This document shows, piece after piece, positions 4,788 through 10,508 of a stretch of DNA of 21,742 nt; the stretch's first letter is position 1; each line of letters opens with the position of its first letter. The translations under genes were made by a program, and so were the position numbers. The DNA is from a virus. The notes below the pieces were generated by a model, which saw only the letters and a list, made by a program, of their open reading frames with translations, was not told where the DNA came from and searched no databases. The stretch is from the IMG/VR virus record IMGVR_UViG_3300032246_001445, positions 1 through 21,742 of that record, one strand, 5' to 3'.

Positions 4788-6113
4788 TTATCTAAATTCG
4801 GTTCTCGAATCAGGTATTACAACATTCGTTGGTTTTGGTGCTTCCGAATTTATATGGACATGGGAATCTTCTTTCTTCTCATCAAAAGGATCTTTTGGGT
4901 TGAAGTCAGAATTTAATTGTTCTGGATCAAGTTGGAAAGTTGTTTCTGGTTCTTCATTAACATACAACATTGGTTCATTTGTGTTATCTGTTTTTGAAAA
5001 ATATTCTTTGACAACTTTCTTAAATTCCTCAGGCACTTCTTTCGGTGGCTCAGGAATCAACCATGTGTCTTTTGCTGGTTCTTCAACTGCAACTGTTTCA
5101 ACTTTTTGTTCAGTTTGTAGTTGGTTAAGAGAATCAACAATTTGACTCCAGTATTTATTTTGATCGTCCTCAGTTTCCTCATCACTTTGTTCTTCATCCG
5201 TCTCATCTTGTTCCTTCAATTCAGTTGTTGTTTCATAATACCATGAAGGACTTACAGATTCTTCAGGACGTACCATCGGAAATGGGAAAGTAGGTAAATG
5301 TGAATCTTCCTCTTCCTCATCAGCTTCCGCTGGTTCATCAACTACTTTAATTTGTTCATCTTCAGGTTTTCTGTTTAGCATTTCTCTATTTGCTGCAATC
5401 AACATCAACACAGCCATAGGATCAAAAACAAAAACAATCAGAAGAATAACGATACGAACTGATTTCTCTAGAATAGTATCGTCAAGAACATCTCCGTAGA
5501 TTAACGCTGCGATGTATTTGATCGGACCGACTTCGGCTTCGACTTTGCGGAGTTCGCTCGCGACTGGGGCACGCTCTTCGTTGTACTTGGCGATTTTGGC
5601 TTGCGAGGTTTGGATTTCGTTGAGGAGACTGTTTCTTTCTTTGGCTTGACTTCTACGGATGGCGACGGAGCGATCGGCTCCACGATCATCTGTGGTTCTT
5701 GCGAGGGTTTGGTCAACTTGTGAATCCAGTTGAGAAATTGCTTTACGAGCTGCATCGACATTATCCTTTTCTGTTTTAATTTTCTCGTCGAGAATTGCTA
5801 TCTTAGATGCCACATCTCCAGTTGGAACTGCTTGGTCTAAGTGCGCTTTACTTAGGTATCCGAAAATACCCATGCTTGTTAGTAGCATTAGGATGACAAC
5901 TGCCGATGTGAAGTAAGTCTTCAATAACATCGGTGCTGTCTTCCAATTTCTATATAGCCATGATGCGGAAACCAATTTACTTGCTTCTAAAATTGATCCC
6001 ATCACAGCGATAGGAATAACTGCTGTTGAGAAAATAGCAATCAATCCCATCACAGAATAATACGCTGCTACTGCGGACAATGCAAAACCGCATGTAAATA
6101 GTAGGTATATCAT
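4788..6113 (-). CDS. Phage membrane protein with periplasmic or cytoplasmic coiled coil and acidic tail (441 aa)
   Basis: Hydrophobic segments lie at about residues 4-43 (probably two passes), 66-88 and 220-241. Between the third and fourth is a region of about 125 residues (95-198) with coiled-coil character (KIAILDEKIKTEKDNVDAARK, LLNEIQTSQAKIAKYNEE). After the last segment a tail of about 200 residues is very rich in Glu, Asp and Pro, with no folded-domain signature. I recall proteins with the same N-terminal half (membrane segments with LEASKLVSASWLYRNW, then MGIFGYLSKAH) in many T4-like environmental phages, without a known role. Its start overlaps the GIY-YIG gene by four bases (ATGA). 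It could act at the cell membrane during infection, for example in exclusion or lysis timing, but this is speculation. Confidence 0.85.
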   Translation of the reverse strand: MIYLLFTCGFALSAVAAYYSVMGLIAIFSTAVIPIAVMGSILEASKLVSASWLYRNWKTAPMLLKTYFTSAVVILMLLTSMGIFGYLSKAHLDQAVPTGDVASKIAILDEKIKTEKDNVDAARKAISQLDSQVDQTLARTTDDRGADRSVAIRRSQAKERNSLLNEIQTSQAKIAKYNEERAPVASELRKVEAEVGPIKYIAALIYGDVLDDTILEKSVRIVILLIVFVFDPMAVLMLIAANREMLNRKPEDEQIKVVDEPAEADEEEEDSHLPTFPFPMVRPEESVSPSWYYETTTELKEQDETDEEQSDEETEDDQNKYWSQIVDSLNQLQTEQKVETVAVEEPAKDTWLIPEPPKEVPEEFKKVVKEYFSKTDNTNEPMLYVNEEPETTFQLDPEQLNSDFNPKDPFDEKKEDSHVHINSEAPKPTNVVIPDSRTEFR

Positions 6114-6499
6114 TTTTTTATATGCTTCCTGTGAGTTTTAATCATAATCCATTCATTATAATAATTATCGTCTAAAAGTACATTTAAGTCAAATTGGAAT
6201 TTTGCTTCCCAATAATTTGTATTACCTCTAGTTGGACACAACATCAATATTTTGCGAGAAAAGTTCTCGACACCATATTTATTGATATCTTCAATTAGGA
6301 CTTTGTTCGAACCCCAGTAATCACGCCAATTACTCTCTACCCTTGTTCTTTTCTTTTTACCTTTTACTTGTCGTGTTTTTGCTTCGGTAAAATACTTCCG
6401 ACCGATATATTTCTTACCAGTCAGATTATTTGTAATCTCGTAGATGAAACCATACCAATCACCAGCATCTACGAATGGTTCGTTATTGTGGTGCCACAT
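6110..6499 (-). CDS. GIY-YIG-type putative endonuclease
   Basis: The 129-aa product has the short GIY-YIG layout: GFIYEITN (18-25), KKYIGRKYF (29-37), a basic region (KGKKKRTRVESNW, including the ESxW motif), DYWGSNKVLIEDINKYG and a late Glu in NYWEAK (about 98). These fit the stand-alone phage/homing-type GIY-YIG nucleases (SegE-like), in which the first Tyr, the Arg after YIG and the late Glu are catalytic. The family cuts DNA; whether this copy is a mobile homing nuclease or a phage function is open. I chose ATG 6499-6497 (MWHHNNEPFV) because family members begin with a W-x-N-x-P-F motif; a GTG at 6535 is possible. It overlaps the 48-aa gene by 17 bases and has no clear ribosome site. Confidence 0.85.
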   Translation of the reverse strand: MWHHNNEPFVDAGDWYGFIYEITNNLTGKKYIGRKYFTEAKTRQVKGKKKRTRVESNWRDYWGSNKVLIEDINKYGVENFSRKILMLCPTRGNTNYWEAKFQFDLNVLLDDNYYNEWIMIKTHRKHIKK

Positions 6500-6629
6500 C
6501 GGTGGGTGGCGCAGGTGGAGGTGTTGGTTGAGCACCTTCTGCTTGTGCGGTGTCCATTGAGGAACCCTGTGGGTTTTTTAATTTGCTAAACCAATCATTA
6601 CCTTGTAGTTCGCTTGGGTTTTCTGCCAT
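6483..6629 (-). CDS. Small Pro-rich protein (48 aa), unknown function
   Basis: From ATG 6629-6627, with a TGAGGTAAAG ribosome site directly upstream, the frame encodes 48 residues: MAENPSELQGNDWFSKLKNP, then a Gln/Ala stretch and a Pro-rich C-terminus (PTPPPAPPTDVAPQ). It starts 2 bases after the PP-loop gene and overlaps the nuclease gene, so it is coupled to both. It looks unstructured. Small Pro-rich tails of this kind often bind partner proteins; no function can be assigned. Confidence 0.7.
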   Translation of the reverse strand: MAENPSELQGNDWFSKLKNPQGSSMDTAQAEGAQPTPPPAPPTDVAPQ

Positions 6630-6631
6630 CT

Positions 6632-7729
6632 TTACCTCATAAAACTGTTATTGGGAACATAGAATTCATTTGGATCTAGATCATAAATGTATTCATATTC
6701 ACTACTTAGTGCTACTGGTGTATCACGTTGTAGAAACAGTTTGTATAGGCTACCAGCTTTCATTTTAAAATCTCTATACTCTTGGTCTTTAGTATAGTCA
6801 TAGATAACTTCTTTGGCATGGAATTTATAAGATTCCCAGTTATGTTTAATCTTCAACTGTTTGTTCGACATACTCCAAATCTGAAAGTAATCTTCAGTAA
6901 AAAAATGATGGAAATATGTGTTAACAAAATCTTTATCAATGTTCTTACGAATTGTTTTATCAACACGTAATATCATTCTGAAGAAAACAGATTGCCACTT
7001 AAAGTTGAAGTTGTACCACCAGAAAAAATCAAATACAGTTTTGATTTCACAAGGTGCTTGTTTTCCATGCTCGTGTAATATTTCATACCAAACATTTGCG
7101 AATGGTTCTGTTAAACCACGCTGCATAAAATAATCAACTACAATTTCTCTAGTATATGGCGAATGAATAATCTCAAAACTAAATCGATTCTTGAAGTCTC
7201 CGATAACATCAGTACCAAACAATTGATCGTTGTGTTCACCACCAATAATCAAACACTTCTTATCAAAGTAAAGTGTCATTCTGTCACTTGGCTTGACTGT
7301 TAATTTTCCACGAATGTGATTTTGATAGAAGTTTGGATTCTCACGAATGCTATCCATACTCATGACAACAACAAGTCTATCGCGATCTGACTCAGGGATT
7401 ACTTTTAAAAATGATACTAGAACAAGAGTTGAATCAATACCACCAGAGTAAAACACATAAAGTGGTAAGTCCATTTGTTTCGACTTCTCATATAATTCAG
7501 TTGCTCTTTTCTCGCAACATTGTTCATATGTTAAATCATACTTACTTAAATCTGTTGGCATGATATTTGGTTCATACAGTTTAAATCTGTATGGCATAAT
7601 AACACGCTCTGAACGATCAACTAGACTTACGTTCAAATTGATCATTTCATAAATGCTACCCCACTCAGGACATCCAGCAGCAGGATGTTCTCTAAGAATA
7701 TCGCAGTTGGCAAGATATAATTCTTTCAT
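6632..7729 (-). CDS. Asparagine-synthase-like PP-loop ATPase (365 aa)
   Basis: The protein has a PP-loop, SGGIDST (95-101), in YVFYSGGIDSTLVLVSF, which in this superfamily binds ATP and adenylates a carboxyl or carbonyl group (or makes a sulfur/amide transfer intermediate). A second motif GGEHNDQLFG (163-172) resembles the 'GxGxDELFGG' motif of asparagine synthetase C-terminal domains. There is no N-terminal glutaminase domain; instead residues 1-85 form another region with several Cys (9, 20, 71, 72). The C-terminal half is rich in Phe/Tyr/Trp and has no motif I know. The start is ATG 7729, sharing one base with the upstream stop (TGATG). Substrate unknown: nucleotide or base modification, amidation, or an unknown small molecule are all possible. 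Confidence 0.88.
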   Translation of the reverse strand: MKELYLANCDILREHPAAGCPEWGSIYEMINLNVSLVDRSERVIMPYRFKLYEPNIMPTDLSKYDLTYEQCCEKRATELYEKSKQMDLPLYVFYSGGIDSTLVLVSFLKVIPESDRDRLVVVMSMDSIRENPNFYQNHIRGKLTVKPSDRMTLYFDKKCLIIGGEHNDQLFGTDVIGDFKNRFSFEIIHSPYTREIVVDYFMQRGLTEPFANVWYEILHEHGKQAPCEIKTVFDFFWWYNFNFKWQSVFFRMILRVDKTIRKNIDKDFVNTYFHHFFTEDYFQIWSMSNKQLKIKHNWESYKFHAKEVIYDYTKDQEYRDFKMKAGSLYKLFLQRDTPVALSSEYEYIYDLDPNEFYVPNNSFMR

Positions 7730-8361
7730 CAGCAATGCGCATTTCTAACCAAAGCATGACAGGCATCTTTAAATCCTTGTCTTAATTCATCTCTGGTTGA
7801 TAGTTTATTAAATTTGTCAACATAAACACCAAACCATGCGAAATTTCTCATCTTGATCAACCCACTGGTTTCAAGCATGAGTGTAAGTTCTTCATATGCT
7901 GTTTTGTTGGAAATATTGTGAGCAGATGCATATTCAACTATACCATTAGCATATGTATCTGTCTTTGGATCACTGGCTTCCATATCTTTAATCAGGAATG
8001 CCATAATAGATTCGTCAAAATACAAGACGGATCTTTCATTTTGTCTACGGAATTGTTCTTCTAGAGCATGAATATAATGAGCACGAACAGAAGCAATTTT
8101 CTTGCGATCCATATACTCTTTGGTTATCAACAACTCTGGCATATAACCAATCCAAGTATCTTGTTTTGGTGTGAGTCTCAGCTTGTCTTTTTCAAAGTCA
8201 AACTGTTTAAGTTCTTGAGCAACCGAATCGATCTCTATTGGAATAACAACAACATCAGTGTTAATCATTCCTTTAGAAACTGCGATAGCAGTAGTAAATG
8301 ATTTTGGTAATGCTAAGATCGCTTTAGTTGATACATCAATTACGGTATATAAAGCACTCAT
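7729..8361 (-). CDS. Unknown phage protein (210 aa), partner of the PP-loop gene
   Basis: The soluble protein starts MSALYTVIDVSTKAILALPK. Its first part is beta/alpha (TDVVVIPIEIDSVAQEL), the middle is helical and basic (YMDRKKIASVRAHYIHALEEQFRRQ), and the end is helical. No catalytic motif, membrane segment or Cys cluster is visible. Its stop overlaps the PP-loop start by one base and its start overlaps the zinc-ribbon stop by four (ATGA), so the three are translated together and may act together. I do not recognise the family. Confidence 0.8.
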   Translation of the reverse strand: MSALYTVIDVSTKAILALPKSFTTAIAVSKGMINTDVVVIPIEIDSVAQELKQFDFEKDKLRLTPKQDTWIGYMPELLITKEYMDRKKIASVRAHYIHALEEQFRRQNERSVLYFDESIMAFLIKDMEASDPKTDTYANGIVEYASAHNISNKTAYEELTLMLETSGLIKMRNFAWFGVYVDKFNKLSTRDELRQGFKDACHALVRNAHC

Positions 8362-8510
8362 TCTTCATCATCAATTAGTTCTTCTTCCTCATATATATCG
8401 CTGCCACAAAATGGACAATATACGATATCGTTTTTGGTATAGTCGCCTTCTTTAAATTTTATGCTGCCATGCGCTCCGCAGCTTTCGCAATCAAAATGTT
8501 TAAGTGCCAT
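8358..8510 (-). CDS. Small zinc-ribbon protein (50 aa)
   Basis: ATG 8510-8508 shares one base with the nrdB stop (TAATG) and the frame ends at TGA 8360-8358. The 50 residues contain two CxxC knuckles, C8-ESC11-G and C32-PFC35-G, spaced 20 apart with a beta-rich linker (GSIKFKEGDYTKNDIVY) and then an acidic tail. That is the classic zinc-ribbon fold, which in phages serves in transcription, DNA or protein contacts. It probably binds one Zn2+. Whether it serves NrdB, the PP-loop enzyme or something else cannot be told. Confidence 0.85.
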   Translation of the reverse strand: MALKHFDCESCGAHGSIKFKEGDYTKNDIVYCPFCGSDIYEEEELIDDEE

Positions 8511-9493
8511 TATGCCCACACCTCTCCCCACTGACCAGATAACGCACCTTTAGCGTAGTCAGTAGCACGATTTTCAAAAAAGTTTGTATGAGTCGGTGCA
8601 TTAATCATTTCTTCTACCCATGGTAGTGGATTTTTCTTAACTTTGAATATTCCTTTTAAGCCAAGAGAAATTAAGCGACGATCTGCGATGTAACGAATAT
8701 ACTGTTTAACATCTTCTGGTGTTAACTCTTCCATAGCACCCATAGAGAATGCCAAGTCAATAAATTTTTCTTCAAGAGAAACCATTTTCTCAGCGATAGT
8801 ATATATCTGAGATTTCAAATCATCATTCCAAATTTCTTTGTTTTCTTCAATGTATGTTCTAAACAATTTAATCATTGATTCAGCATGCATTGTTTCATCA
8901 ACAATAGACCATGTGATGATTTGTCCCATACCTTTCATTTTGCCATGTCGTGGAAAATTCAACAACATAATGAATGATGAGAACAACTGCATACCTTCAG
9001 TAAAAGCAGAGAACGCAGCAATATTTGTTGCTACTGATTCCATTGTACCATTCTTATTTGAAAGATCAACAAAGTAATCGTGTTTGTCTTTCATTTCAGC
9101 ATATTCCAAAAACTCATTATATGTTGTTTCTGGCATACCAAGTGTTTCAATTAGGTGTGAGTAACCTGCAACGTGTAACGCTTCTCTTGCTGCGAATCCC
9201 ATCAACATCATTCTTATTTCTGGTTGTGGGAAGTATGGTAGGTAATTCTTCACGTATCCTCCCGCCACATCCACATCCCCTTGGACAAAGAATCGCAGAA
9301 TGTTTGTAAGGAAGTGTTTTTCTTCTTGTGTTAATTTCTTTTTCCAATCTTTGACATCCTCCATCATTGGTACTTCTGTGTGTAACCAGTGGGCTTGTTC
9401 ATGTTTTAACCAAGCATTATATGCCCACGGATAATGGAATGGTTTAAAGGAACTACGCTCATCTGTTAATTTTAATTTTGTTTTTTTAATCAT
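8510..9493 (-). CDS. nrdB: Ribonucleotide reductase class Ia, beta subunit
   Basis: NrdB houses the di-iron centre and tyrosyl radical that drive reduction of ribonucleotides in NrdA. All key residues are visible: iron ligands D73 (QGDVDV), E104 and H107 (REALH), E166 (FTEGMQLF), E200 and H203 (DETMH), and the radical Y111 four residues after H107. The spacings D-to-E (31) and E166-to-E200 (34) equal those of E. coli NrdB. At 327 aa it is slightly shorter than the E. coli protein; the H107-to-E166 stretch is 27 residues shorter, as is usual for phage and diverse bacterial forms. It starts inside the end of the upstream small membrane gene (8-base overlap), and its stop overlaps the zinc ribbon. 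It works with nrdA at 10509-12293. Confidence 0.97.
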   Translation of the reverse strand: MIKKTKLKLTDERSSFKPFHYPWAYNAWLKHEQAHWLHTEVPMMEDVKDWKKKLTQEEKHFLTNILRFFVQGDVDVAGGYVKNYLPYFPQPEIRMMLMGFAAREALHVAGYSHLIETLGMPETTYNEFLEYAEMKDKHDYFVDLSNKNGTMESVATNIAAFSAFTEGMQLFSSFIMLLNFPRHGKMKGMGQIITWSIVDETMHAESMIKLFRTYIEENKEIWNDDLKSQIYTIAEKMVSLEEKFIDLAFSMGAMEELTPEDVKQYIRYIADRRLISLGLKGIFKVKKNPLPWVEEMINAPTHTNFFENRATDYAKGALSGQWGEVWA

Positions 9494-9857: not shown

Positions 9858-10508
9858 TTATTTCTCCGTAAGTTCATTAACAAAATTCAATAATAGATCA
9901 TGGTGTTTTCCACCATTCCAGTATTTGTTTATATACTGCCATGGTTTCTCATACCAATATAAAGGTGCTTCTGGATGACAACCAATTATTCCAACTCTTC
10001 CTTTGATGATCGCCATCGGATCACCATTAGCATATCTAGCGATTGTTTTGAATTTGGTTTCATCACCAATCAAAGCACAACCATCATAGAAATACATTTT
10101 TTCTTCTTGACCATTCCAAGTAACAGAAGCTACTGTACCAAAACTTCGTTTGACTCCAGCATTTGGTCTTTTGATATATTGAACAGCACGAACATCTTCA
10201 ATTATGTCAAGATACCATTGGTCAGCCCAATAAGCACCCATACATATACCAAGATAATACCCACCATCTTCAATAAACTTGGCTATTCTATTTCCAGTTC
10301 TCCTAGTAAAAAACTTATAAAAAGAATCAGAATCCCCAAGCCCACCAGGAAAAGCAACAATATCAACACCATTGAAAAAATTAACATCTTCTATATCCTT
10401 CTCATTAAATGTTTTTACATTATAATTTGAAGAAAGAGATTTCGTCATTGCTTCTACACAATCTTCAGAACACTCTGGATCATGTAAAAAAAGTGCGATG
10501 GTTTTCAT
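9858..10508 (-). CDS. Class-I glutamine amidotransferase-like (BPL_N-type) protein
   Basis: The 216-aa protein has the flavodoxin-like fold order of class-I amidotransferases: an N-terminal strand (TIALFLHD), a GG motif (VAFPGGLGD, 51-59), a nucleophile elbow GICMGAYWA with C89, and a late H178-x-E180 (GCHPEA), which together form the Cys-His-Glu triad. The shape best fits the BPL_N domain of biotin-protein ligases rather than a glutamine-dependent synthase, since no synthase domain is attached. The reaction is therefore unknown; it may hydrolyse or transfer a small amide. Its ATG lies immediately after the nrdA stop with no gap, so it is co-translated with the reductase genes. Confidence 0.85.
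   Translation of the reverse strand: MKTIALFLHDPECSEDCVEAMTKSLSSNYNVKTFNEKDIEDVNFFNGVDIVAFPGGLGDSDSFYKFFTRRTGNRIAKFIEDGGYYLGICMGAYWADQWYLDIIEDVRAVQYIKRPNAGVKRSFGTVASVTWNGQEEKMYFYDGCALIGDETKFKTIARYANGDPMAIIKGRVGIIGCHPEAPLYWYEKPWQYINKYWNGGKHHDLLLNFVNELTEK

Follow-up and report, generated by a model that had tools for sequence, protein, structure and literature searches.

The PP-loop ligases include the enzymes that form asparagine, beta-lactams, lasso peptides and peptide nitriles. The asparagine synthetase (AS)-like enzymes amidate or nitrilate peptide C-termini, and one of them, PesC, needs Tyr368 and loses its activity without Glu363 (PMC13060819). The locus described here belongs to a widespread phage branch of these ligases, in which a PP-loop protein (PP) has an obligate partner (U), the usual third gene is a cupin, and no curated family was matched. 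No prior description of the U-PP pair was found in the literature searched, nor any that brings together a PP-loop enzyme, a phage and a cupin.

Gene run around PP in the window

The stretch of DNA analyzed (the window) is a 21.7-kb virus record, in which the genes of the module all lie on the minus strand, in the transcriptional order nrdB, Znr, U and PP. The ribonucleotide reductase small subunit is encoded by nrdB (8510..9493; Pfam Ribonuc_red_sm, 4.5e-75), a 50-aa zinc ribbon with a CxxC...CxxC pattern by Znr (8358..8510), the 210-aa partner protein by U (7729..8361), and the putative AsnB-type PP-loop ATPase, of 365 aa, by PP (6632..7729). The ORF listing puts the PP start at a TTG at 7735 (6632-7735, 367 aa). 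However, the start is most likely the ATG at 7729, since the relatives begin at the equivalent Met of the M(T)ELYLAN sequence. The PP start overlaps the U stop by 1 nt (TGATG), U and Znr overlap by 4 nt (ATGA), and Znr, whose most likely start is the ATG at 8510, shares 1 nt with the nrdB stop codon (TAATG). Therefore, the coupling runs through nrdB-Znr-U-PP.

The zinc ribbon had been described in the earlier note as locked to the pair. Its overlap with U was confirmed, but not a role as functional partner: among the loci of PP homologues, Znr was found beside U-PP only in the close T4-like relatives of the window. It was therefore placed outside the conserved module and rejected as a partner, being a mere local neighbor in these relatives. 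The genes nrdA, nrdB and thyX are near PP in the window, and this nrd/thyX neighborhood is confined to the same close T4-like group. A class-I GATase/BPL_N-like protein is encoded between nrdA and nrdB (9858..10508, minus strand; Pfam BPL_N, 3.7e-14).

A SegE-type GIY-YIG endonuclease gene lies directly downstream of PP (6110..6535, minus strand; Pfam SegE_GIY-YIG, 1.4e-34), and in another phage a gene that looks SegE-like adjoins U (L135:3865-4293). Since such genes adjoin the pair in two different phages, U-PP might move by homing. The window's SegE endonuclease was also the best match here for PHROG 447, labelled NAD synthetase, which on this match is probably a mislabelled family.

Motifs, relatives and predicted folds of PP and U

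Both motifs reported in the earlier note were present in the minus-strand ORF 6632-7735, SGGIDST at residues 97-103 and GGEHNDQLFG at residues 165-174 (367-aa ORF numbering). Searched as a single sequence, PP matched no Pfam family above the cut-off and no PDB entry, and the PHROGs matches were weak ones to PP-loop families. Among the INPHARED phages, the sole match was Pseudomonas phage Cygsa01, with two paralogues (best identity 24.8%), and scans of IMG/VR gave 7, then 25 and then 236 relatives, the best 80 of the 236 being listed. Both PP genes of Cygsa01 (L009:6682-8831, PP179332.1) are annotated as the tRNA 2-thiouridylase MnmA, which looks like a misannotation.

The conservation counts rest on an alignment of 63 homologues, in which S97, G98, G99, D101, S102 and W239 are invariant, and for this reason the reading frames are not chance. 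The GE..D motif is kept in nearly all of them (G166 and E167 in 58/63 each, D170 in 62/63), and three late lysines, K304, K324 and K326, are near-invariant. C73 is Cys in 33/63, and no conserved catalytic Cys was found. The commonest Pfam match among the members was a weak one to Asn_synthase (27/63, best E 0.0013), and the PP of the window had no match to this synthetase domain (PF00733). When the profile of the 63 homologues was searched against the PDB, LarE (E 0.0012), asparagine synthetase (0.04), TilS and nitrile synthetase were retrieved; all are PP-loop enzymes, matched over the PP-loop only, with the LarE match spanning about 36 residues. In a comparison with hhalign, GGEHNDQLFG aligned to TGEGGDPCLGG of an AsnB-like protein of Verrucomicrobia at a probability of only 29.5%, and this same alignment placed the positions of the Glu-Tyr dyad of the DELFGGY motif at Q171 (52/63) and D176 (30/63).

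The earlier note had also stated that PP carries no glutaminase domain, and the sequence and the model agree with it: no Pfam domain reached the cut-off, an N-terminal glutaminase with Cys at position 2 is absent and no row of the alignment (A8) starts with Met-Cys, and the 365-aa chain was modelled by AlphaFold2 as one confident PP-loop protein (pTM 0.93). The structure predictions proposed in that note were confident for both proteins, with a pLDDT of 96.1 for PP and 95.4 for U. In Foldseek searches of the PDB, the best match of the PP model was beta-lactam synthetase (E 5.8e-4, probability 1.00). Beta-lactam and asparagine synthetases took the first places (probability 0.87-1.00), in line with the likeness to asparagine synthase proposed before, with TM scores of only 0.22-0.35; PP is therefore distantly related to them. 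The top matches were all PP-loop enzymes, as befits a HUP-type fold, and AsnB-type enzymes ranked above LarE. Because on the hhalign alignment GE..D is kept and the Glu-Tyr dyad replaced, PP is placed, with its predicted AsnB-type fold, outside the characterized amidase group. Since the dyad corresponds to Q171/D176, its catalytic details would differ from those of PesC. A known family with a known substrate was sought with Pfam, PDB profiles and Foldseek, and no clear match for PP was obtained.

The AlphaFold2 model of U (pTM 0.87) combines a small alpha/beta part at the N-terminus with a helical bundle. No credible fold match was found in the PDB (best E 0.11), and U has no solved or Pfam relative; neither its sequence nor its predicted fold fits a glutaminase. 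The best fold matches in BFVD were uncharacterized phage proteins (E 4.7e-10, TM 0.70). A weak match to a DUF4376 protein was also seen (E 0.03, probability 0.99, TM to query 0.39). DUF4376 occurs in gp27, the tail-fibre chaperone of Alteromonas phage V22 (PMC7289586, PMC10579305). By Pfam, 0/62 U members match DUF4376, and as sequence profiles do not confirm it, this likeness is a lead only.

A second PP-loop family that recurs in the loci, PP2, proved to be related to PP when the two profiles were compared (probability 96.7, E 4.4e-10). Its members are about 310 aa long (L101:1288-2217 and relatives, alignment A11) and have no Pfam match; their nearest PDB profile matches are NAD synthetases.

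Conservation of the U-PP pair and its neighbors

The locking of PP to the 210-aa U, proposed in the earlier note for the window, was found to extend to nearly all loci of the family. A total of 85 adjacent U-PP pairs were collected; in 37 of them the overlap is exactly 4 nt, and the others mostly overlap or nearly touch. The distance matrices of U and PP correlated strongly (Mantel r = 0.81, permutation maximum 0.14, 53 non-redundant pairs), against 0.44 for PP and the adjoining cupin (16 cases), which shows co-inheritance of U and PP, not physical contact. Moreover, the pair is duplicated in tandem as a unit (U-PP-U-PP) in one set of close relatives and re-occurs two to three times per genome; a 105-kb contig nearly identical to the window has three PP genes, one of them in a U-PP-cupin run. 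U was present in all 12 long contigs with PP, and PP without a detected U was seen in Cygsa01, in L123 and in two Verrucomicrobia loci. Between its two PP genes, Cygsa01 encodes a 90-aa protein, which was considered as a U and rejected, as the U profile gives no match. L123 was likewise rejected as a U-PP fusion, its 255-aa N-terminal extension scoring no better against this profile than shuffled sequence. Many uncultured phages from water, and a few bacteria, carry the two genes as one unit.

Across the loci, the recurrent neighbors are cupins, PP2, GNATs, 2OG oxygenases, a fatty-acid desaturase, radical-SAM maturases, YcaO/SagB and tail genes, and DNA-modification genes are not among them. 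The cupin is the usual third gene, found beside PP in 25 of the 51 locus groups, followed by PP2 (17/51), the desaturase (13/51) and GNATs (10/51). The desaturase, PP2 and k205 co-occur in phage loci that all contain U-PP by construction (p 1.5e-5 to 2.4e-7, kinship ignored). A sodium-solute-symporter-like gene, named by inspection, adjoins U-PP in three phages and one bacterial MAG (L047:5963-7351, L083:9027-10382, L088:9637-10995 and L122:10131-11558); the one copy searched had no Pfam match.

Peptide-modification contexts also recurred. Seven loci (L077, L089, L090, L092, L093, L096 and L098) have a SPASM radical-SAM gene upstream of U-PP-cupin, either directly or at a short distance. Its products are PapB/QhpD-like, and their best NCBIfam match was the PapB ranthipeptide maturase (E 5e-21, below the cut-off of that model). 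A protein with a Cys/Asn-rich C-terminus precedes the SPASM gene at these U-PP-cupin loci. Directly before the SPASM gene, proteins that resemble tail proteins at the N-terminus and have a C-terminal domain rich in Cys and Asn are encoded at L089:4729-5139, L092:4955-5371, L096:4996-5385, L098:4012-4428 and L077:4618-5721. The Cys/Asn-rich phage proteins beside the SPASM gene look like RiPP-style modified virion proteins. In Cygsa01, L066 and L123, by raw adjacency, the gene just before PP or U encodes a Gly-rich protein that looks like an adhesin; structural genes make up roughly one in five genes of phages. Some U-PP loci encode Cys-rich proteins or Gly/Ser/Cys-rich peptides, the window encodes none of them, and many loci, the window's included, lie near nucleotide-metabolism genes with no visible peptide partner.

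A scan of GTDB detected six cellular copies. In Duganella sacchari (L120:4604-9748, NZ_FRCX01000005.1) the pair belongs to a seven-gene operon, PP2-k205-desaturase-GNAT-U-PP-cupin, with several 4-nt overlaps and with flanking sequences that, by inspection, are FliP/FliA-like and RHS-like. This gene set is shared with phage contigs. The first gene of the operon had no Pfam, NCBIfam or PDB match, and its candidacy as an RRE/PqqD-like protein was rejected on that account. As the Duganella copy is a compact operon in a named bacterial strain, the chemistry is directly testable. Two Patescibacteria loci, binned as Paceibacterota and Moraniibacteriota, combine U and PP with a TOMM-type YcaO and a SagB-like dehydrogenase, both identified by NCBIfam in the former, the YcaO by NCBIfam and the SagB-like gene by inspection in the latter; small Gly/Ser/Cys-rich peptides are encoded in both loci. 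In the Verrucomicrobia loci, PP overlaps the cupin and adjoins an AsnB-like protein. The copies other than Duganella are MAGs, and so misbinning is possible for them. Surveys of 380, 246 and 289 related genomes yielded no further copies beyond the one already known in each, and the PP family is therefore mainly viral in the data examined.

Candidate function and comparison with known systems

The product of U-PP is probably an amide-type bond, made on a peptide or on a small molecule, and a modification of DNA is less likely. By its predicted fold and its motifs, and in having no glutaminase, PP looks like an AMP-forming ligase that would use an amine or free ammonia. For the adenylation, the type of bond, the role of U, its contact with PP and the class of substrate, we infer the following course. 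PP would bind ATP in the PP-loop and convert a carboxylate to its acyl-adenylate, in the manner of asparagine synthetase, beta-lactam synthetase and the lasso cyclases; attack by an amine would then give an amide, isopeptide or lactam bond. U would present or recognize the substrate. Our tentative preference is that the two proteins form a two-subunit AMP-forming ligase acting on a ribosomal peptide or protein, which may be a small peptide or, in some phages, a tail protein, and which would be processed together with the cupin and, depending on the lineage, with radical-SAM, YcaO/SagB, GNAT or 2OG enzymes. If U-PP does modify tail proteins or peptides, it would represent a new phage route to alter host recognition or to make peptide products. 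A bolder version, which we regard as unlikely, takes U-PP(-cupin) as a phage RiPP-like system, with U as a recognition subunit derived from a chaperone and PP as an AsnB-type ligase that would form amide or isopeptide bonds, either on the adhesins of the tail or on small peptides that are secreted; some phages would add a radical-SAM maturase, with a tail protein rich in Cys as its target.

We place a peptide or protein substrate slightly ahead of a small molecule, given that lineages with no close kinship repeatedly have YcaO/SagB, SPASM maturases or adhesins near the pair; the weak likeness of U to DUF4376 proteins would also suit it. The small-molecule reading stays close because of the desaturase/GNAT operon of Duganella, and amidation of small molecules, which the earlier note had also named, remains a candidate. 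It is conceivable, if somewhat doubtful, that the same two-subunit ligase couples an amine with a carboxylate of amino-acid-like or fatty-acyl type, within a metabolite pathway including the desaturase, GNATs, the cupin, 2OG oxygenases and PP2, which phages would carry to alter host metabolism or the host envelope. The gene order of that operon with its several 4-nt overlaps, the co-occurrence of desaturase, PP2 and k205 in phage loci, the four loci with an adjoining symporter-like gene and the weak resemblance of the cupin to ectoine synthase are consistent with such a pathway. However, YcaO/SagB and the SPASM maturases with their Cys-rich proteins are peptide-modifying systems, and no product of the pathway can be named. 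The desaturase, GNATs and symporter at other loci fit small-molecule chemistry equally well.

The earlier note had raised modified bases as one possibility. In this reading, PP would make such a base in phage DNA, with U as its partner and the dNTP-synthesis genes as the supply. The nearness of nrdA, nrdB and thyX and the weak DndC matches, over the PP-loop only, would suit this. The neighborhood, however, is specific to the window's relatives, and neither QueC nor GTP cyclohydrolase I goes along with U-PP, which disfavors DNA modification: both are absent from the three contigs closest to the window (G001, G002 and G005), and FolE is missing from half of the 12 long contigs that all have U. 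As the bacterial operon copies carry no DNA-modification genes and PP has no QueC four-Cys site, this role is very improbable. There is little more chance that PP is a tRNA- or cofactor-thiolating sulfurtransferase of the MnmA/ThiI/LarE type, as the LarE profile match and the MnmA annotation in PP179332 might suggest, given the shortness of that match, the variable C73 and the higher rank of AsnB-type enzymes in Foldseek. The last candidate was an amidotransferase supplied with ammonia by the class-I GATase-like protein at 9858-10508. This gene still has the Cys and HPE motifs and is only three ORFs away from PP in the same direction, but it accompanies U-PP in only 3/12 long contigs, so that it was rejected as an obligate donor, and in G004 it is found on another segment, some 6 kb distant; such an arrangement is the least probable of all.

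Compared with QueC, DndC, LarE and MnmA, PP is alike in the PP-loop only, the similarity ending after about 40-60 residues, and it lacks their family-specific Cys or Zn motifs, including the C-terminal four-Cys zinc site of QueC. U and the DUF4376 chaperones are both small phage proteins with at most a weak likeness in fold, but in most loci U is coupled to PP and not to a fibre gene. The AS-like RiPP enzymes (PesC nitrile synthetase, TsrC, lasso cyclases) belong to the same PP-loop class, and several U-PP loci lie among peptide-modifying genes; by contrast, in PP the dyad is not conserved, U-PP comes without a defined precursor peptide, and a separate partner takes the place of a fused N-terminal domain. 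With beta-lactam synthetase and the C-terminal domain of AsnB (PF00733), PP has in common the SGGxDS PP-loop, a GE..D that aligns to GEGGD and the near-invariant late lysines. It differs from them in having neither an N-terminal Ntn glutaminase nor a relic of one, in the putative change of the dyad from Glu/Tyr to Gln/Asp, in the extra conserved segments WW.NF..KW and FQ.W, and in nearly always travelling with U.
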